Shown here in pieces: positions 4,726-46,325 of a DNA stretch of 64,000 nt (position 1 is the first letter of the stretch; the number at the start of each line of letters is the position of its first letter). The position numbers and the translations under genes were made by a program. The DNA is from Pengzhenrongella sicca. Lineage in GTDB: Bacteria; Actinomycetota; Actinomycetes; Actinomycetales; Cellulomonadaceae. Location: positions 992,001-1,056,000 of the forward strand of contig NZ_CP071868.1 in NCBI RefSeq assembly GCF_017569225.1, in the 5' to 3' direction. A model generated the notes under the pieces. It had not been told where the DNA came from. It did not search any database and saw nothing but the letters and a program-made list of their open reading frames with translations.

Positions 4726-5592
4726 TCAGGGGTTCTCGAGGAGCCCGAGCAGGTAGGTGCCGTAGCCGGACTTGACGAGCTTCTCGGCCCGCGTGCGCAG
4801 CTCGTCGTCGGTCAGGAAGCCGCGTCGCCAGGCGACCTCCTCCGGGGACCCGATCTTCAGGCCCTGGCGCCGCTCGACGGTGCGCACGTAGTCGGACGCC
4901 TCGAGGAGCGAGTCGAACGTGCCGGTGTCCAGCCACGCCGTCCCGCGGGGCAGCACCTCGACCTGCAGGCGACCCTGCTCGAGGTACACGCGGTTGACGT
5001 CGGTGATCTCGTACTCGCCGCGCGCCGAGGGCTTGAGGTCCTTCGCGATCGCCACGACGTCGTTGTCGTAGAAGTAGAGCCCGGGCACCGCGTAGTTGCT
5101 CTTCGGGTGCGCCGGCTTCTCCTCCAGCGACAGCGCGCGGCCGGTCTGGTCGAACTCGACGACGCCGTAGGCCGTGGCGTCCGCGACCCGGTAGGCGAAC
5201 ACGGCGGCCCCGTCGATGCGCTCGAAGCGCGAGAGCTGGGAGCCGAGCCGGGGTCCGTAGAAGATGTTGTCGCCGAGCACGAGCGACGCGGCGTCGTTGC
5301 CCACGAAGTCGGCGCCGAGCACGAACGCCTGCGCGAGCCCGTTGGGCTCGGCCTGCACGGTGTAGCTGATCGAGACCCCGAACTGGGAGCCGTCGCCGAG
5401 CAGCCGGCGGAACTGGTCCGCCTCGTGGGGCGTGGTGATGACGAGGACGTCCCGGATGCCCGCGAGGATCAGCGTCGACAGCGGGTAGTAGATCATCGGT
5501 TTGTCGTACACCGGCACGAGCTGCTTGCTGACGCCGAGAGTGATCGGGTGGAGCCGGGTGCCCGAGCCGCCGGCCAAGATGATTCCGCGCAT
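4726..5592 (-). CDS. rmlA: Glucose-1-phosphate thymidylyltransferase
   Basis: A 288-residue nucleotidyltransferase that couples dTTP and glucose-1-phosphate, the first step of dTDP-rhamnose synthesis. It begins [14 protein letters not shown] with the G-x-G-T-R pyrophosphorylase signature at residues 6-14, followed by [17 protein letters not shown] and, mid-protein, FIYGPRLG-type and [17 protein letters not shown] motifs. Length is typical of RmlA. An upstream in-frame ATG would add 31 residues with no family resemblance, so ATG 5592 is preferred. It is divergent from manA, with 136 bp between the starts. Confidence 0.94.
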
Positions 5593-5728: not shown

Positions 5729-6925
5729 GTGATCAGACTTGCCAACCCCGCCCAGCACTATGCCTGGGGTTCGGTGACGGCGATCCCGGAGCTGTTGGGG
5801 TTGCCGGCGGCGACGGAGCCGCTCGCCGAGTCGTGGCTCGGCGCGCACCCGAGCGCGCCCTCGGTCGTCCGGACCGAGCACGGCTCCGCGGGGCTGGACT
5901 CGTGGCTCGCCGCGGACGCCGAGGGCCTGCTCGGCGCCGACGTCGTCGCCCGGTTCGGGCCGTCGCTGCCCTACCTGCTCAAGGTCATCGCGGCTGAGAC
6001 GCCGCTCTCGCTGCAGGTCCACCCGACCGCCGAGCAGGCGGCGGTGGGCTTCGCGGCCGAGGAGGACGCCGGCGTCCCGATCACGGCGGTGCACCGCAAC
6101 TATCGCGACCGCAACCACAAGCCCGAGCTGCTCTACGCCCTCACTCCGTTCGAGGCCCTGTGCGGTTTTCGTGCGCCGCGGCGCGCCGCGGAGCTGCTCG
6201 CCGACCTCGACGCGCCGCTGGCCAAGCAGCTGCACGACGTGCTCACGACGCAGCCGTCCTTCGAGGGGATCCGCGCCGCCTTCACGCAGCTGCTGCAGGC
6301 GCACACCCGCCCGAGCGCCGACGCCGTGCACGAGGTCACCGACGCCTGCGCCGCGCGCCTCGCCGCGGGCTCGTCCTCGCCCCGCGCCGACCGCACGGTC
6401 GTGCTCCTCGCGCAGCAGTACCCCGGCGACCCCGGGGTGGTGACCTCGCTGCTGCTCAACCCGGTCACGCTCCAGCCCGGCGACGCGATGTTCGTCCCGG
6501 CCGGCGGCGTGCACGCCTACCTGCACGGGCTCGGCATCGAGATCATGGCGAGCTCCGACAACGTGCTGCGCGCGGGGCTGACCACCAAGCACATCGACGT
6601 CGACGAGCTGCTCCGCAACGTCGACTACGTCGCTGCCCCCCCGATCCGGATCGCCCCGGAGATCTTCCACCGCGCCACCCGGGTGTTCTACGCGCCGGTG
6701 GACGACTTCGAGCTCTCGGTCACCTCGATCGACGACGCGGTCGTGCACCCGTTGCCGGGCCGCGGCCCGCGCATCCTGCTGTGCCTGGCGGGCGAGCTCG
6801 AGATCCGGACCGCCCGCGGGTCGGTCGTCAAGCTGCTGCGCGGCGAGTCGATCTTCGCGCCGGCCTCCGACGGCGACCTCACCGTCCAGGGGTCGGGGAC
6901 CGTCGTTCAGGCCGACGTGCCCTGA
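5729..6925 (+). CDS. manA: Mannose-6-phosphate isomerase, class I
   Basis: A 398-residue type I phosphomannose isomerase, a zinc cupin that interconverts fructose-6-phosphate and mannose-6-phosphate and so opens the route to GDP-mannose. Visible motifs are NPAQHYAWGS at the N-terminus, SLQVHPTAEQA and NYRDRNHKPELLYALTPFEA (zinc ligands Q, H and E), and the PGDAMFVPAGGVHAYLHGLG signature. The GTG start at 5729 is preceded by GAGG. A TACCAT -10-like hexamer at 5690-5695 is suitably placed, but its -35 is weak. The 3' end overlaps the convergent TIGR03089 gene by 19 bp. In mycobacteria manA sits in this same neighbourhood. Confidence 0.93.
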   Translation: MIRLANPAQHYAWGSVTAIPELLGLPAATEPLAESWLGAHPSAPSVVRTEHGSAGLDSWLAADAEGLLGADVVARFGPSLPYLLKVIAAETPLSLQVHPTAEQAAVGFAAEEDAGVPITAVHRNYRDRNHKPELLYALTPFEALCGFRAPRRAAELLADLDAPLAKQLHDVLTTQPSFEGIRAAFTQLLQAHTRPSADAVHEVTDACAARLAAGSSSPRADRTVVLLAQQYPGDPGVVTSLLLNPVTLQPGDAMFVPAGGVHAYLHGLGIEIMASSDNVLRAGLTTKHIDVDELLRNVDYVAAPPIRIAPEIFHRATRVFYAPVDDFELSVTSIDDAVVHPLPGRGPRILLCLAGELEIRTARGSVVKLLRGESIFAPASDGDLTVQGSGTVVQADVP

Positions 6926-20059: not shown

Positions 20060-20163
20060 CGGACCGTAGCGACGCGCGTGGGACGGGAGTGGCCAGCGGG
20101 GCGCATGCGCTGTCGCACCGGCCCCAGGAGTCACCTGCGTCACCCGCGCGTCGCTCCGGTCCG
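20060..20163. repeat. Inverted-repeat element, family 2, copy 1 (D)
   Basis: A 19-bp arm at 20060-20078 (CGGACCGTAGCGACGCGCG) is the reverse complement of 20145-20163 with a single mismatch. The arms enclose 66 bases. A second copy of the same arms is found at 26002-26105. It lies in the noncoding gap between convergent mtnN and the substrate-binding protein gene. Confidence 0.88.
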
Positions 20164-20213: not shown

Positions 20214-20316
20214 CACCGTCCGCGCGGAGCATGTGGCGCGAGTGACGGCAGGGGCTGGAAGTGCCCCAGTTCCCGTCACTTCCGCCTCTTCCGCACCATG
20301 CTCCGCGCGGACGGTG
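20214..20316. repeat. Inverted-repeat element, family 1, copy 1 (A)
   Basis: Perfect 20-bp arms at 20214-20233 (CACCGTCCGCGCGGAGCATG) and 20297-20316. Each arm contains the self-palindrome TCCGCGCGGA. Nested inside are AGTGACGG (20241-20248) pairing with CCGTCACT (20273-20280), and GGGGC (20251-20255) pairing with GCCCC (20263-20267), so the element can fold into a stacked hairpin. Two further copies of the arms occur at 25705-25803 and 26137-26235. Elements D and A account for most of the 359-bp gap from 20027 to 20385. Confidence 0.93.
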
Positions 20317-20385
20317 CTCTGCAGAACGCGCGAGGCGCACCGCCCAGACATCGGACGGTGCGCCTCGCGGGTCGTGCCGAGCGGG

Positions 20386-21306
20386 CTACGCCTTGTCGGC
20401 CGCTGCCTTCAGGGTCGTGACGAACTCGGGGTTCTCCTCGAGCCACTGCGCGGCCGAGCCCTCGTTGTCGTCGCCGCCGTTCTCGTTGAACATCAGGTTC
20501 TCGAGAGTGAACAGCTCGTCACTGGTCAGCGTGAACTGCGCGAGCCACGAGGCGAGCTCGGGGTAGTCCTCGCCGAAGCCCGTACGGCCGACCATCTCGA
20601 TGTTCTCCGCCTCGCCGAGCGTGCCCTCGGGGTCCTCGAGGTCGCGCAGCGGGAAGGCGTCGTACGCCCAGTGCGGGCGCCACAGCGTGACCGCGATGTT
20701 GCGGTCGGCGTCGATCGCGCCGCTGAGCTCGGCGAGCATCGCCGGGGTCGAGGACTCCACGAAGTCCAGGTCCTCGAGGCCGTAGGTCGGGATGACCTCG
20801 TCCTTCGTGATGCGCGTGAGGCCGGCGCCGGGCTCGATGCCGACCAGCCGGTTGTCGACGACGTCGCCCTGGGTCGCGAGATCCGCGATCGTCACCAGCG
20901 GCGAGTCCTCGTTCACGGCGATGGTCAGCCGCGCGTCGTCGTACCAGGAGCCCAGCTGCTCAAGGTCGTCGCCGTACTTCTCGAGGTAGTCGGCGTGGGT
21001 GACGGGGAGCCACATGTCGAAGTTGACGTCGAAGTCGCCGCCGGCGATGCCGGTGTAGACGATGCCGGGGTCGGCCGTCTCGAGCTCGACCTCGTAGCCC
21101 TCGTCCGCGAGGATCGCCTGCCACAGGTACGACGCGGCGATGCCCTCGTCCCAGCCGTTGTGGATCGCGATCGTGAGGTCCTTCTGGTCCCCGCCGGGGG
21201 TGAGGTCCGCGGCGTCGGCCTCCCCGCTCGCGCAGGCTCCGAGCAGGAGCGCGAGCGCGGCCGCCGAGGCGGTCAGGGCCAGGGGGCGGCTCAGGTGTGC
21301 GGTCAT
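20386..21306 (-). CDS. proX: Glycine betaine/proline ABC transporter substrate-binding lipoprotein
   Basis: A 306-residue lipoprotein with lipobox LLGAC (C25) after a signal peptide. The mature part matches OpuAC/ProX proteins: KDLTIAIHNGWDEGIAASYLW, TGIAGGDFDVNFDMWLP and NIAVTLWRPHWAYDAF, with tryptophans that in this family cage the quaternary ammonium group. It is the last gene of a three-gene operon with ATPase and permease genes upstream on the same strand (73-bp gap to the permease). Role: capture of betaine-type osmoprotectants. Exact substrate unknown. Confidence 0.9.
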   Translation of the reverse strand: MTAHLSRPLALTASAAALALLLGACASGEADAADLTPGGDQKDLTIAIHNGWDEGIAASYLWQAILADEGYEVELETADPGIVYTGIAGGDFDVNFDMWLPVTHADYLEKYGDDLEQLGSWYDDARLTIAVNEDSPLVTIADLATQGDVVDNRLVGIEPGAGLTRITKDEVIPTYGLEDLDFVESSTPAMLAELSGAIDADRNIAVTLWRPHWAYDAFPLRDLEDPEGTLGEAENIEMVGRTGFGEDYPELASWLAQFTLTSDELFTLENLMFNENGGDDNEGSAAQWLEENPEFVTTLKAAADKA

Positions 21307-21379
21307 GGTGTCCTTTCGAGGTGCCGTGGCGTGCTGCCGACGGCGAAGGGTGGGTGCGAGCTGGGGCGCTGCAGCGTGG

Positions 21380-22264
21380 TCAGACGGCGGCGAGCTGCAG
21401 CGCGCGGGAGACCGGCGCGCGGGCGGCGAGCGCCGACGTCATGCGGTCGAGGTAGATCGCCAGGATCACGACGGCGAGGCCGGCCTCGAAGCCGAGTGCG
21501 ACGTCGACGCGGGACAGGGCGGACAGGACGTCGCTGCCGAGCCCGTCGGCACCGACCATCCCGGAGATGACGGCCATCGACAGCGCGAGCATGATCACCT
21601 GGTTGATGCCGGCCATGATGGTCGGGAGTGCGAGCGGGATCTGGATCTGGCGCAGGATGCGGCCCGGCGACGCGCCGAACGCGTGGCCGGCCTCGACCAC
21701 CTCGGAGTCGACCTGCCGGATGCCGAGCTCGGTGAAGCGCACCCCGGGGGCCATCGCGAACACGATCGTCGCGACGATCCCGGGCACGGCGCCGGTGAGG
21801 AAGATGACGACCGTCGGGATCAGGTAGACGAACGCGGGCATCGTCTGCATGAAGTCCAGCACCGGCCGCAGGGCGGCGGAGACCTTGTCGTTGCGCGCGG
21901 CGAGGATGCCGAGCGGCACCGCGATGGCGAGCGCGATGACGCTCGCGACCAGGACCAGCGCGAGCGTCGCCATCGCGTTCTCCCACTGGTCGACCCCGAT
22001 GATCAGCGCGAAGCCGACCAGCGCGGTCACCGCGAGCTGCCAGCCCTTGAGGAAGAACGCCAGCGCGGCGAGCACGAGCACGACCGCCCAGGCGGGCGGC
22101 GCCGCGAGCACGTACTCGAGCCCGTCGTAGCCGCCCTCGAGCACGGACTTGATCGCGTCGAAGAGGCCGTCGAACGTGTGGGTGATCGCGGTCACGGCGC
22201 CGTCGACCCACTCGCCGAGCGGCAGGCGGAACAGCGGGTCGGAGCTAGCTGCGAGGACGGTCAT
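21380..22264 (-). CDS. proW: Glycine betaine/proline ABC transporter permease
   Basis: A 294-residue integral membrane protein with about six to seven hydrophobic helices and the binding-protein-dependent permease loop EAGHAFGASPGRILRQIQIPLALP (split here as EAGHAFGASPGRIL and QIQIPLALP), which docks on the ATPase. The N-terminus FRLPLGEWVDGAVTAITH resembles ProW/OpuAB. Its ATG overlaps the ATPase stop by 4 bp, so the subunits are translationally coupled. Confidence 0.91.
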   Translation of the reverse strand: MTVLAASSDPLFRLPLGEWVDGAVTAITHTFDGLFDAIKSVLEGGYDGLEYVLAAPPAWAVVLVLAALAFFLKGWQLAVTALVGFALIIGVDQWENAMATLALVLVASVIALAIAVPLGILAARNDKVSAALRPVLDFMQTMPAFVYLIPTVVIFLTGAVPGIVATIVFAMAPGVRFTELGIRQVDSEVVEAGHAFGASPGRILRQIQIPLALPTIMAGINQVIMLALSMAVISGMVGADGLGSDVLSALSRVDVALGFEAGLAVVILAIYLDRMTSALAARAPVSRALQLAAV

Positions 22265-23547
22265 TTGACGTCTCCCGTCCTGGAGAGGTTGAGTGCTTCG
22301 GATTCGAGCGCGTCGAGCTCGGTGTCGAGGTCCTCGCCCAGGCCCTCGGGGTCGACGGCGTCGACGGGCTCGACCACCGTCGGCTTCATGGCCTCGAGCA
22401 GCGTCACGCGGGGGATCACGCCGACGAGCTTGCCGCGGGCGTCCACCACCGGGACCGGCAGCGGCGTCTCGGCGGCGGGAGCGAACAGCTCAGCGAGCAG
22501 GGCGTCCTCCGTGACCGGCGACACCTCGTCGCGCGTCAGGTCGACGAGCGCGCCGCCGCCGGCGCGGACCGCGGCGACGACGTCCTGGTCGCGCACGACG
22601 CCGAGCAGCAGGCGGTCGCGGTCGACGACGTACGCCGCCGAGGTCTGCGCGTCGCGCATCGTGCGCAGGGCCACGTGCGGTCCGGCGGAGGCGACGACGA
22701 CGGCGGTCGGGCGCACCATGACGGAGCCGGCCGTCAGGACCCGGGTGCGGTCGACGTCGGCGACGAACTGCGCGACGTAGTCGTCGGCCGGCGCGGACAG
22801 GATCTCCTCGGACGTGCCGATCTGGACGATGCGCCCGTCGCGCATCATGGCGATCCGGTCCCCGAGGTGCATGGCCTCGTTGAGGTCGTGCGTAATGAAG
22901 ATGATGGTCTTGCCGAGGGTCTGCTGGAGCTCGAGCAGCTGCTCCTGCATCTCGCCGCGGATCAGCGGGTCGAGTGCGGAGAAGGCCTCGTCCATGAGCA
23001 GCACGTCGGTGTCGGCGGCCAGGGCGCGGGCGAGGCCCACGCGCTGGCGCATCCCGCCGGACAACTGCGACGGCAGGGAGTCCTCCCAGCCGTCGAGCCC
23101 GACGAGGCCGAGAGCCTCGGCGGCGCGCCGGCGGCGCTCGGTCTTGTCGACCCCGGAGATCTCCAGCGGAAACGCCGCGTTGTCGAGGACGGTGCGGTGC
23201 GGCAGGAGCGCGAAGTGCTGGAACACCATGCTCACGCGCTTGCGCCGAATGTCGCGCAGCTCCGACGCGCTGACCTTCGCCAGGTCGTGCTCGCCGAGCA
23301 TGATGCTGCCCGCGGTCGGGCGGACCAGCCCGTTGAGCATGCGGATCAGGGTTGACTTGCCGGACCCCGACAGGCCCATCACGACGAACGTCTCGCCGGG
23401 GGCGACCTCGAAGCTCGTGTCGATGACGGCGGCCGTGCCGAGGCTCTTGACGTCGTCGCGGCCGGCGCCGTCCCGCAGGCGACGGACGGCCTCGTGCGGG
23501 CGTCGACCGAACACCTTGAACACGCCTTCGGCGCGGATTGCAGTCAC
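22261..23547 (-). CDS. proV: Glycine betaine/proline ABC transporter ATP-binding protein with CBS domains
   Basis: A 428-residue ATPase. Walker A GLSGSGKST is near residue 59, signature LSGGMRQRVGLARALA and Walker B VLLMDEAFSALDPLIR follow, then the H-loop FITHDLNEA. After the ATPase domain, residues about 275-390 hold a CBS-pair region (RTMRDAQTSAAYVVDRDRLL and PVPVVDARGKLVGVIPR). In OpuA-type transporters these sense ionic strength. An acidic C-terminal tail (EGLGEDLDTELDALESE) may take part in that sensing. The start is GTG 23547, preceded by GGGGA. First gene of the operon. Confidence 0.93.
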   Translation of the reverse strand: MTAIRAEGVFKVFGRRPHEAVRRLRDGAGRDDVKSLGTAAVIDTSFEVAPGETFVVMGLSGSGKSTLIRMLNGLVRPTAGSIMLGEHDLAKVSASELRDIRRKRVSMVFQHFALLPHRTVLDNAAFPLEISGVDKTERRRRAAEALGLVGLDGWEDSLPSQLSGGMRQRVGLARALAADTDVLLMDEAFSALDPLIRGEMQEQLLELQQTLGKTIIFITHDLNEAMHLGDRIAMMRDGRIVQIGTSEEILSAPADDYVAQFVADVDRTRVLTAGSVMVRPTAVVVASAGPHVALRTMRDAQTSAAYVVDRDRLLLGVVRDQDVVAAVRAGGGALVDLTRDEVSPVTEDALLAELFAPAAETPLPVPVVDARGKLVGVIPRVTLLEAMKPTVVEPVDAVDPEGLGEDLDTELDALESEALNLSRTGDVK

Positions 23548-23982
23548 AACTGTCCCCGTTCAGTAGCTCGCGATCCGGACCGCGCGCCCTCGGAGGCACG
23601 GCACAGCGCGCCACGCGCGATCGCGGGGCGGCAGTTCTTGGTCCGGGCAGACGGTCGATCGGTGGACGACGGCGGGCACCTGGTGCAACGCCGTGCACGT
23701 CACTCACGGGGCCGGCGCGCCGCCGAGTCAGGCACCAAAGGAGGCCTGTCGGGGCATGTCGCACGTCGCCCGGTTCAACCGATCGTAAATCTGTTCGACA
23801 CCTACGATGCCTTGCCGACGCCAGATCGCCTAACGGGATTCGGCCCGGATCGTGCCCACGGGCGTCGCTCAGACCCGGATAAAGGGACCCTGACCGGTGG
23901 CTTTACCTGGTTTTGAGGTATGACCATAGTGAGGCCGAGCCGACGCGGTTTCGAGCCCGTCTGGCGCACCGATGCGGCTGAG
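23548..23982. other. 435-bp gap upstream of the betaine/proline operon
   Basis: No supportable protein gene or RNA. The part at about 23770-23935 is less GC-rich than its surroundings and would contain the operon promoter (reading leftward), but no confident -35/-10 pair is visible. The ABC-F gene ends at its right border. Confidence 0.5.
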
Positions 23983-25620
23983 CTACTCCTCGCGGACTGT
24001 CCCCGCGGCCACGACCCAGCGCCGGTTGACCGCGACGGCGTCCAGCATCCGGCGGTCGTGCGTGACGAGCAGCAGGGTCCCGGTGTATCCCGCGAGCGCC
24101 GACTCGAGCTGCTCGATCGCCGGCAGGTCGAGATGGTTGCTCGGCTCGTCGAGCACGAGCAGGTTGACGCCGCGCGCCTGCAGCAGCGCGAGCGCCGCGC
24201 GCGTGCGCTCGCCGGGGGACAGGGACCGGGCCGGGCGCTGCACGTGCGCCGCCTTGAGGCCGAACTTGGCGAGCAGCGTCCGCACCTCGGCGGCCGGCCA
24301 CGCCGGCACCTGAGCCTCGAACGCGTCGGCGAGCGGAAGGGTCGAGTCGAGCAGGGCGCGCGCCTGGTCGACCTCGCCGATCGCGACGCTCGTGCCGAGC
24401 GACGCCGCGCCGCTCGCGAGCGGGACCCGGCCCAGCAGTGCGCCGAGCAACGTCGTCTTGCCGGCGCCGTTCGCACCCGTCACGGCGATCCGGTCGCCGG
24501 CGTCCACCTGGAGGTTCACGGGCCCGAGCGTGAACGGCCCCAGGTGCACGACGGCGTCGCGCAGGGTCGCGACCACGGCGCTCCCGCGGGGTGCGGCCGC
24601 GATCTCGTACCGCAGCTCCCACTCCTTGCGTGGCTCGGCGACCTCCTCGAGGCGCTCGATCATGCGGGCGGTCTGGCTGACCTTGGCGGCCTGCTTCTCG
24701 GTCTGCTCGACCCGGAAGCCGCGGCCGATCTTGTCGTTGTCCTTGCGCTTGCGCGCCGCCGCCTTGACGCCCTGATCCATCCAGCCCCGCTGCATCTTGC
24801 CGCGCTCCTCGAGGGCGCCGCGCTTGTCGGCGTACTCGTCGTAGTCCTCGCGCGCGTGCCGGCGCGCGGTCGCGCGCTCGTCGAGGTAGGCGTCGTAGCC
24901 GCCGCCGTACACGCCGACGCGCTGCTGGGCGAGGTCGAGCTCGACCACGCCCGTGACGCACCGCGAGAGGAACTCGCGGTCGTGCGAGACGACGACGATC
25001 CCGGCGCGTTGACCCTGGACGAACGCCTCGAGCCGCGCGAGGCCGTCGAGGTCCAGGTCGTTGGTCGGCTCGTCCAGCAACAGCACGTCGAAGCGCGCGA
25101 GCAGCAGCGCCGCCAGGCCGACGCGCGCCGCCTGACCGCCCGACAGCCCGGTCATCGGGTGGGTCAGGTCGAGCCGCAGCCCGAGGTCGGCCAGCACCTG
25201 ACCGGTGCGTTCGTCCAGGTCGGCCGCGCCGAGCGCCATCCAACGGTCGAACGCGGCCGAGTAGGCGTCGTCCGCGCCGGGGCGCGCCTCGCCGAGGCCG
25301 GCGGCGGCGTCGTCGAGCGCGAGCTGTGCGGCCGCGACGCCGGTGCGGCGCTCGAGGTGCCCCGCGACGGTCTCGCCGACGCGTCGCTCAACCTCCTGCG
25401 GGAGCCAGCCGATCGTGGCGTCGGCGGGGGAGAGCGAGACGCTGCCGGTCGCCGGCGCGTCGAGCCCGGCGAGGATGCGCAGCAGCGTGGACTTGCCCGC
25501 GCCGTTGGCCCCGACGAGGCCGACCACGTCACCGGGGGCGACGGTGACGGCGAGGTCGGCGAAGAGCGTGCGGTCGGCATGGGCGGCGCTCACGCCGCGG
25601 GCCACCAGGGTTGCGGTCAC
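23983..25620 (-). CDS. ABC-F family ATP-binding protein
   Basis: A 545-residue soluble protein with two ATPase domains and no membrane segments. The first has GANGAGKST, LSGGQAARVGLA and LLLDEPTNDLDL. The second has GANGAGKTT, a divergent signature LSPGERTRAAL and LVLDEPSNHLDLP. The domains are joined by a long, highly charged linker (residues about 245-330, with ARKRKDNDKIGRG), the P-site-tRNA-interaction motif region of ABC-F proteins. These factors bind the ribosomal E site and either tune translation (EttA type) or protect against antibiotics; the subfamily cannot be told from sequence alone. The start is GTG 25620. Its upstream region carries inverted repeats of both families. Confidence 0.9.
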   Translation of the reverse strand: MTATLVARGVSAAHADRTLFADLAVTVAPGDVVGLVGANGAGKSTLLRILAGLDAPATGSVSLSPADATIGWLPQEVERRVGETVAGHLERRTGVAAAQLALDDAAAGLGEARPGADDAYSAAFDRWMALGAADLDERTGQVLADLGLRLDLTHPMTGLSGGQAARVGLAALLLARFDVLLLDEPTNDLDLDGLARLEAFVQGQRAGIVVVSHDREFLSRCVTGVVELDLAQQRVGVYGGGYDAYLDERATARRHAREDYDEYADKRGALEERGKMQRGWMDQGVKAAARKRKDNDKIGRGFRVEQTEKQAAKVSQTARMIERLEEVAEPRKEWELRYEIAAAPRGSAVVATLRDAVVHLGPFTLGPVNLQVDAGDRIAVTGANGAGKTTLLGALLGRVPLASGAASLGTSVAIGEVDQARALLDSTLPLADAFEAQVPAWPAAEVRTLLAKFGLKAAHVQRPARSLSPGERTRAALALLQARGVNLLVLDEPSNHLDLPAIEQLESALAGYTGTLLLVTHDRRMLDAVAVNRRWVVAAGTVREE

Positions 25621-25704
25621 GGTGCGAATTCTCGCAGCCGCGCGCGGGCGGCCGAACCGGCGGGCCGGTCCAGTGTGGGGCGGACGCGGGCCTGGCGGGG
25701 GGCA

Positions 25705-25803
25705 CCGTCCGCGCGGAGCATGTGGCCGGTGGTGCTGGCGGGGTTGGTGGGATGCGCTGGCGGTTCACTCGGGTCCCGCCCGTCCCATGCTCCGCGCGGA
25801 CGG
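25705..25803. repeat. Inverted-repeat element, family 1, copy 2 (B)
   Basis: Perfect 18-bp arms CCGTCCGCGCGGAGCATG (25705-25722) and its reverse complement (25786-25803). An inner GGCGGG (25737-25742) can pair with CCCGCC (25775-25780). It is almost identical throughout, including the loop and the preceding GGGCCTGGCGGGG, to copy C at 26137-26235 (three substitutions in the 99-bp body by eye). Confidence 0.93.
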
Positions 25804-25841
25804 GTGCTGACCGCCTGGCGGATGCGGACGGCTGGACGGGT

Positions 25842-25913
25842 GCTGACTGCCGGAGGGTTGCTGACTGCTGGAGGGTTGCTGACTGCCGGAGGGTTGCTGA
25901 CTGCCGGAGGGTT
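25842..25913. repeat. 18-bp tandem repeat, four copies
   Basis: Units GCTGACTGCCGGAGGGTT at 25842-25859, 25860-25877 (one change), 25878-25895 and 25896-25913, followed by a fifth partial start GCTGAG. They lie between inverted repeats B and E in a noncoding region upstream of both the ABC-F gene and ahcY. The whole gap 25621-26312 (692 bp) consists largely of repeats. Confidence 0.92.
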
Positions 25914-26001
25914 GCTGAGCGCGCGGACGGGTTGCCGACCACCGGGGAGGGGCGCGTGGGCGCGTGCCGCGGCGCCGGTGACGAACTGGAGGGGGTTGTG
26001 G

Positions 26002-26105
26002 CGGACCGCAGCGACGCGCTTGGTGCTGGAGTTGCTGCGGGGGCGCGTGGGGTGTCACGTCCGCATCAGTCGTCACTCCTGTCACAGGCGCGTCGCTGCG
26101 GTCCG
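26002..26105. repeat. Inverted-repeat element, family 2, copy 2 (E)
   Basis: Perfect 18-bp arms: CGGACCGCAGCGACGCGC at 26002-26019 and its reverse complement at 26088-26105, separated by 68 bases. The arms match element D (20060-20163). As there, a family-1 element follows shortly to the right (C, 31 bases later). Confidence 0.9.
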
Positions 26106-26136
26106 GTGTCCCGCGGTGGTGGGCCTGGCGGGGGCA

Positions 26137-26235
26137 CCGTCCGCGCGGAGCATGTGGCCGGTGGTACTGGCGGGGTTGGTGGGATGCGCTGGCGGTTCGC
26201 TCGGGTCCCGCCCGTCGCATGCTCCGCGCGGACGG
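26137..26235. repeat. Inverted-repeat element, family 1, copy 3 (C)
   Basis: Perfect 18-bp arms at 26137-26154 and 26218-26235, the same sequence as elements A and B. It ends about 78 bases before the ahcY start, so it may lie in or near the ahcY promoter or leader. Confidence 0.93.
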
Positions 26236-26312
26236 ACGGGATCGGCGCGCGCGGTGCCCGGGTCGATCGGTAGCGTGACCGGTGTCCGTTTCGATGCAGC
26301 CTGCGGAGTGAG

Positions 26313-46209: not shown

Positions 46210-46325
46210 CGAGTGTGGGCGTTCGACTCTCAACGGTTCGAGTGTGTTCATTCGGTCCCCACCGCGCGCGTCTGACCAGCAGATCGCCCACACGTGCGTA
46301 CCTTCCAGCAGAACGCCCACACTCG
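46210..46325. repeat. Long inverted repeat between lpqB and comF
   Basis: CGAGTGTGGGCGTTC at 46210-46224 and its perfect reverse complement at 46311-46325 enclose 86 bases. Inside is an extra CGCCCACAC (46285-46293) that can also pair with the left arm, giving alternative hairpins. No open frame in the loop looks real. It may be a terminator or regulatory structure. Confidence 0.85.

Follow-up and report, generated by a model that had tools for sequence, protein, structure and literature searches.

What are the roughly 100-bp inverted repeats that lie between genes in a 64,000-nucleotide stretch of the Pengzhenrongella sicca chromosome (NZ_CP071868.1, positions 992,001 to 1,056,000; hereafter the window, with positions counted from its first letter)? 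The initial annotation, made from the letters of the window, saw three copies and offered three guesses: an element resembling miniature inverted-repeat transposable elements (MITEs), a structured RNA, or a multi-site operator. We propose that the repeats are short, non-autonomous interspersed palindromes whose spread or maintenance depends on a Vsr-like endonuclease encoded by a separate, usually single-copy gene, as that of REPINs depends on RAYT. We regard this as the probable explanation. Below, we establish the anatomy and dispersal of the elements, show that they co-occur with the nuclease gene and lie next to it and that their arms covary with the nuclease, and report their absence at one orthologous site in four congeners.

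Two families of inverted repeats are dispersed in the P. sicca genome

The three annotated repeats proved genuine. Their arms, CCGTCCGCGCGGAGCATG, form perfect inverted pairs at 20216-20314 (copy A, core 20232-20298), 25705-25803 (copy B, core 25721-25787) and 26137-26235 (copy C, core 26153-26219). We refer to these elements as family F1; none is assigned a strand. They measure 99 bp between the outer arm ends, with perfect arms of 18 bp, or of 20 bp in copy A, where the arms reach 20214-20316. When up to three mismatches were allowed, the F1 arm had eight matches in the window compared with 1.35 expected from shuffles, and six of the eight were the arms of A, B and C. When the window was simulated 10 times under a first-order Markov model, no perfect arm at spans of 60-140 bp exceeded 15. 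The placement was also as annotated, with copy A in a convergent gap and copies B and C between the divergent ABC-F gene and ahcY. Copies B and C share 97% identity across 106 bp that include flanking sequence and therefore represent a local duplication rather than independent insertions, C being a duplicate of B plus part of its flank.

A second family, F2, had escaped the initial annotation. It comprises two 104-bp inverted repeats, likewise without an assigned strand, with arms CGGACCG.AGCGACGCGC. One adjoins copy A (20060-20163, core 20079-20144, 19-bp arms), and the other lies between B and C (26002-26105, core 26021-26086).

The arms are not confined to the three annotated sites. Across the 4.4-Mb genome, the F1 arm yielded 55 matches with at most two mismatches, 18 of them exact, whereas a reversed-pattern control yielded five. 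The matches pair into elements of 98-100 bp, and 29 F1 copies from the loci first fetched could be aligned. When the core score (see below) was combined with the arm match, 49 elements were listed, 30 of F1 and 19 of F2; this count covers the stretches fetched from this genome, and one of the 30 F1 elements is out of register and unlabelled. When genes were called with a rough predictor, 37 of 38 element rows lay outside them and one lay inside. All but one of the 19 listed F2 elements lie within 300 bp of an F1 element, a proximity that is partly due to ascertainment because most loci were fetched on account of an F1. A core model blind to the arms was run on the whole genome and gave, among the matches listed, a single one away from F1, at 3987324.

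The elements share a core of eight 9-bp units

Between the arms lies a hidden core of 65-69 bp that is built from four tandem 9-bp units (WGKKRC-NNN), the fourth without its NNN, followed by four inverted ones. Invariant columns recur at 9-base intervals in the F2 alignment, and the column information in F1 agrees. Across 80 elements drawn from six genomes, the mean match of the eight hexamers is 40.6 of 48 positions, compared with 27.7 when the interiors are shuffled. The core is 65 bp long in nine of these elements, 66 bp in 30, 67 bp in 32, 68 bp in eight and 69 bp in one. A core score of at least 36 picks out exactly the five known elements within the window.

Beyond the core, the arms extend for about 16 bp in F1, 19 bp in F2 and 11 bp in a third family found in congeners, whose elements are 88-89 bp long. 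Arm sequences differ between families and between genera, with other genera carrying other arms, while within one genome the arms are as conserved as the array. The earlier impression that the loops differ and the arms are conserved was thus correct on the surface, but the loop holds the conserved period-9 array, and it is the arms that vary between families and genera.

The core looks like a DNA array read by protein rather than an RNA, and we read it this way because its pairing does not covary. In 54 gapless cores, 62.5% of mirror cells were paired, compared with 62.7% after partners were shuffled among sequences, and the covariation score was 0.181, compared with 0.188 after shuffling. About half of these cores were fetched with the core pattern, which makes their conservation partly a matter of construction but does not help the covariation test. 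Two-sided (compensatory) changes affected none of the nine predicted pairs in the F1 alignment. The nine F2 sequences showed at least one two-sided change in 4 of 19 predicted pairs, the sole covariation result in favor of RNA. An Rfam search of the window returned no match. Single copies fold far better than shuffles (z of -4.7 to -8.0), like any long inverted repeat.

A predicted Vsr-like endonuclease gene is flanked by the elements

In P. sicca (genome G000 of our set), a nuclease gene sits between F1 elements at 3637071-3637169 and 3638208-3638306. Its product has an AbiEi-like N-terminus and a Vsr-like C-terminus. We examined this linkage by an arm-blind search for Pfam DUF559 in 29 genomes and in 20 genomes behind the matches of the distribution scan described below, which led to 60 fetched loci. 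Seven of them carry a core, and all seven were among the 10 loci that scored above 250 bits with a subfamily hidden Markov model (HMM) built from five element-flanked members. A subfamily profile was then drawn from eight element-flanked members and applied to 119 genomes at a threshold of 240 bits. The subfamily was present in 16 genomes, 14 of which encode a single member and two of which (G037 and G118) encode two.

The core (score of at least 36) was found at 11 of the 16 nuclease loci and on both sides of the gene in six; in P. sicca itself, the second element scores 35. Distant homologues (129-218 bits) had a core at none of 14 loci, and the ahcY loci of other genomes had one in 28, at the threshold. 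With the R2 core model, 14 of the 119 genomes gave at least two matches. Eleven genomes contain both nuclease and elements (16 and 14 of 119, respectively; Fisher P = 1.3e-9, or 0.0045 without the eight training genomes). When the training loci were removed, elements occurred at 3 of 8 nuclease loci compared with 0 of 14 loci of distant homologues (P = 0.036). The association extends to Demequina, a member of another family: in one Demequina, two elements enclose a DUF559 frame of 314 residues. The P. sicca genome has four DUF559 matches, three of which were examined: one is flanked by elements, and two (L148 and L174) are unflanked.

The partner is predicted from its sequence to be a Vsr-like endonuclease that combines an MTES_1575/DUF559 domain with an AbiEi_4-like winged-helix N-terminus. 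All eight members matched MTES_1575, DUF559 and AbiEi_4 at an E value of 0.01 or better, and the motif E-x-D-G...Y-H...E-D-R-R-R-D-R is conserved. A profile search of the PDB retrieved 3hrl, an endonuclease-like protein (E = 0.0096), while a single-sequence search of the PDB with the nuclease retrieved nothing relevant. Foldseek, run on a poor model, placed 3r3p in its first two ranks (E = 0.017 and 0.051); this structure is the catalytic domain of I-Bth0305I, a Vsr-like homing endonuclease. PADLOC models gave weak AbiEi and other matches to the nuclease.

Arms change together with the nuclease, and one site is empty in congeners

In five genomes (G000, G001, G002, G016 and G038), the nuclease gene adjoins the same aminotransferase gene, and within the fetched stretch its other flank is a PQQ sugar dehydrogenase gene or metG. 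Compared with P. sicca, the nuclease is 41-46% identical in G001, G002 and G016 and 57% identical over the aligned half in G038, whereas the aminotransferase is 87-90% identical. The arms beside the nuclease are of the F1 type in G000 and of the CAGCCGCGCG type in G001 and G002. Arm similarity tracks nuclease identity across nine genomes (Mantel rho = 0.60, P = 2e-4), and pairs from different genera give a rho of 0.61, the P value of which ignores non-independence. In Cellulomonas fimi SB, elements of the 88-bp type flank the nuclease, and five cores of this flanking type match 42.2 of 48 positions. Seven F1 cores from the same genome are more decayed, matching 37.3 of 48 (P = 0.006), as would be expected if they were left over from a former pairing of arms and nuclease.

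The ABC-F/ahcY gene pair is arranged head-to-head in all four congeners, and none of the four has a core there. The gap measures 692 bp in P. sicca but about 233 bp in G001 and 67 bp in G002, and neither of these two gaps holds an element. This difference shows the gain or loss of an entire block and does not give a precise transposition junction. Among the guesses of the initial annotation, the MITE-like element came closest, agreeing with the many intergenic copies, the same-site presence and absence in congeners and the linked nuclease gene; taken as a whole, the initial interpretation is borne out in part.

These properties suggest a selfish-DNA partnership between the palindromes and a fast-changing nuclease. 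As we envisage it, several nuclease molecules would read the eight-unit array through their winged-helix part, and the nuclease would read the arms and nick or cut there. Repair or replication would then copy the element into a new intergenic site. The rapid divergence of nuclease and arms would reflect their co-evolution.

Distribution of the core across genomes

A degenerate core pattern was scanned against a single genome for each GTDB species and gave 38 stretches. The core, with other arms, is present in Cellulomonas (C. fimi SB and sp. APG4), Actinotalea ferrariae, Pengzhenrongella frigida, several Demequina and metagenome-assembled genomes (MAGs) of Actinomycetales. Even within the genus it is patchy: three of the five congeners (G000-G002) have strong matches, whereas G003 has a single weak one and G004 has none.

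A minority of the 38 stretches come from Planctomycetes, Verrucomicrobia, Kiritimatiellae, Lentisphaerae, Akkermansia, Acidobacteria and two MAGs labelled Proteobacteria. We considered whether the 9-bp arrays of the PVC group and Acidobacteria belong to the same system. The pattern matched eight such genomes, and the core model gave zero to nine weak strand-matches in each, with a best E value of 1.2e-6. None of six DUF559 loci fetched from PVC and Acidobacteria genomes carries a core, and across nine PVC and Acidobacteria loci Rfam found nothing but a tmRNA. These arrays are not counted as the same system, and convergence is a possible explanation for them. They are inverted, WGGGACNNA-like 9-bp arrays with no obvious arms (L110, at 5131-5194 and 6208-6271, and L112, L124, L126, L130, L134, L136 and L142) in Planctomycete, Verrucomicrobial, Kiritimatiellae, Lentisphaerae, Akkermansia and Acidobacteria hosts, one of them in the tail of an Akkermansia gene.

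Weighing the nuclease partnership against other explanations

Several observations weigh against a nuclease-borne family of palindromes. Transposition, excision, cleavage and binding are all inferred, and none was observed. No target-site duplication was evident by eye in the 12-bp flanks of F1 copies. The profile and its threshold were trained on element-flanked nucleases. Five of the 16 genomes with the nuclease (G013, G037, G066, G101 and G118) have no element by R2, and three of the 14 genomes with elements (G029, G054 and G132) have no nuclease above 240 bits; G029 is 80% complete, G054 is in 160 contigs, and G132 has three members of 191-206 bits. Part of the correlation between arms and nuclease may be plain relatedness. 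The P. sicca nuclease itself is at or below the Pfam cut-offs (36.4 compared with 38.2, and 20.6 compared with 20.6), and its AlphaFold model, made with no alignment, is poor (mean pLDDT of 41.9), with the C-terminal hundred residues modeled best.

One alternative is that the elements do not move and serve as operators, with arrays that would be bound by the nuclease protein, or by a different winged-helix regulator, to control its own gene and a regulon. An AbiEi_4-like N-terminus in 8 of 8 members, a core whose eight short, oriented sites form a regular array with dyad symmetry and are conserved independently of base pairing, and the position of elements next to the nuclease gene all fit this idea. 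The multi-site operator of the initial annotation was half correct, in that the core is such an array. However, elements are also found in convergent gaps and on the downstream side of the nuclease gene, the ahcY site is empty in four congeners, arms and array are conserved to the same degree within one genome, and different arm families cluster (18 of the 19 listed F2 elements are within 300 bp of an F1, at loci mostly fetched for F1). An operator would explain the array and its linkage, yet it accounts neither for elements spread to both sides of the nuclease gene nor for their absence in congeners; dispersal and the flanking of one nuclease gene exceed what an operator would do. We consider this explanation unlikely.

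The inverted arms, fixed length and intergenic dispersal would also suit ordinary MITEs of an insertion sequence located elsewhere in the genome and unconnected with the nuclease. That origin appears quite improbable given a constrained core common to families with unrelated arms and the co-occurrence and adjacency with one nuclease subfamily, although the insertion-sequence search covered Y1 transposases only. Very improbable, in our view, are chromosome-organizing or recombination sites that serve the nucleoid or segregation and stand beside the nuclease by chance: regular, symmetric, fixed-length DNA arrays at dispersed intergenic places would be suitable for such a role, but the patchiness within one genus, the correlation with the nuclease and the differing arms of close relatives argue against it. 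A structured RNA family or transcription terminator, also among the initial guesses, is scarcely credible, since the good folding of single copies and the two-sided changes of F2 alone are set against the lack of an Rfam match in the window, the lack of covariation in arms and core, and a strand-symmetric architecture.

Other repeats in the window

The ABC-F/ahcY intergenic stretch (25621-26312, 692 bp, no strand assigned) contains copy B, a tandem repeat, the second F2 element and copy C. The tandem repeat (25797-25939, + strand) follows copy B immediately and consists of 7.8 copies of the 18-bp unit CGGAGGGTTGCTGACTGC. Its period is twice that of the core unit, and GTTGC is retained. It may be a by-product of the 9-bp array. 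Another intergenic inverted repeat, at 46210-46325, spans 116 bp, has arms CGAGTGTGGGCGTTC and contains two more imperfect copies of the motif; there was no sign of this motif beside the DUF559 loci.

Comparison with known repeat and nuclease systems

The closest parallel to palindromes partnered by a nuclease is the REPIN/RAYT system. As the available text of two studies describes them, REPINs have two invariant, inverted 16-18-bp ends and a fixed-length spacer, lie between genes and form several families per genome, and RAYT (TnpA_REP) is a single-copy, trans-acting gene that elements adjoin and whose enzyme co-evolves with the ends (PMC3116915, PMC3733652). The elements of P. sicca and its relatives resemble REPINs in their short inverted ends, fixed spacer, many intergenic copies and several families, in the single-copy gene flanked by elements, and in the co-evolution of ends and enzyme. 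In contrast, the partner is a predicted Vsr-like endonuclease rather than a tyrosine transposase. The Y1/HUH transposase family (PF01797) had no match in the P. sicca genome and matched 5 of 14 control genomes. Whereas REPIN spacers are described as showing compensatory changes, the present core shows none and carries eight 9-bp units. Because there is neither a Y1 transposase nor a compensatory spacer, we file the system as an analogue of REPIN/RAYT and not as a member. TIRtrons, as far as PMC3733652 describes them, are similar in that a gene is flanked by long inverted repeats that form a dispersed family, but their enzyme is a tyrosine transposase.

CGTC-tagged REPs are dispersed palindromes that the relevant part of PMC3733652 presents as lacking a dedicated transposase. 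They too are short palindromes, often in inverted dimers, and the F1 arm happens to begin with CCGTC. Nevertheless, the F1, F2 and other-genus arms do not fit the description given there (a terminal CGTC, an 8-9-bp stem starting with AT, a 4-5-nt loop and a CCA-like tail), and the arm families other than F1 lack CGTC. We also considered CGTC-tagged REPs as partners of DUF559 genes and rejected them: no CGTC palindrome was found within 500 bp of any of eight alpha-proteobacterial DUF559 genes (0/8), the first eight of the plasmid sample described below. An inverted pair of classical CGTC-tagged REPs does occur in Azospirillum lipoferum (L295, 16139-16224), about 3.7 kb from a DUF559 gene.

On the nuclease side, I-Bth0305I is described as a Vsr-like homing endonuclease with an EDxHD motif (PMC6083498). 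The catalytic domain of our partner appears from modeling to share the fold of such enzymes, and a selfish-nuclease way of life is plausible for it; however, Vsr-like homing endonucleases reside in introns or are free-standing and have one target site, whereas a dispersed repeat family both borders the present gene and co-occurs with it. The Vsr-like protein VsrA of Caulobacter shares the DUF559 domain and has a predicted role in mismatch repair tied to cytosine methylation, and the available text of PMC12907096 reports no association of VsrA with repeats. MTES_1575 is named in the corresponding part of PMC3710099 solely as a novel Vsr-type restriction endonuclease (REase). In the open-license PMC literature, we found no paper that links DUF559 or MTES_1575 to repeats and no account of the present system. 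A search with PF05635 (23S-rRNA intervening-sequence protein [IVP]/four-helix protein) gave no match and was uninformative, as the control likewise matched nowhere.

DUF559 genes and palindromes beyond the genus

We tentatively raise the possibility, about which we are somewhat doubtful, that Vsr-like (MTES_1575/DUF559) endonucleases form a second, RAYT-independent class that creates and maintains dispersed bacterial palindromes well beyond this genus. The findings in Cellulomonadaceae and Demequina described above speak for it, as does a sample of plasmid loci. A protein search of the plasmid collection gave 48 DUF559 records, and the sample consisted of 14 fetched among the 40 listed. A perfect hairpin of at least 10 bp was present within 250 bp of the DUF559 gene at 8 of the 14 plasmid loci, two of the eight being near-identical Sinorhizobium loci. 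In total, the surroundings of the genes held 15 hairpins, whereas 0.77 would be expected from their density in the remainder of those stretches. When the control was restricted to intergenic sequence at the eight annotated loci, the excess was smaller: seven hairpins in 2,024 bp compared with 15 in 16,373 bp (Poisson P = 0.003). Counted gap by gap at the same eight loci, hairpins occupied 5 of 12 gaps compared with 13 of 91 (P = 0.034). The remaining six of the 14 loci (two Sphingomonas, Novosphingobium, one Azospirillum, Deinococcus and Pseudanabaena) have no such hairpin.

Two of these surroundings merit description. In the Sinorhizobium loci (L292 and L297, 11800-12560), the DUF559 gene is flanked on both sides by CCCTCTCCCCGC..GCGGGGAGAGGG palindromes, which also occur elsewhere in the L292 stretch. 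Similar palindromes in rhizobia are known as RIME. In Sphingomonas parapaucimobilis (L296 and L305), DUF559 genes have been inserted into two operons, pnt (transhydrogenase) and suf.

Where a dedicated enzyme has been proposed for interspersed palindromes of bacteria, it is a tyrosine transposase, and the CGTC class has been left without one, according to the available text of PMC3733652. If our proposal is true, the same arrangement, selfish or domesticated, would have been invented independently by a repeat family tied to a Vsr-like nuclease, and a function would be given to a multi-genome group of 'DUF' nucleases. The eight-unit array of 9-bp sites is an unusual DNA architecture whose reader is directly testable, and the matched pairs of nuclease and arms would provide a natural series for decoding specificity.

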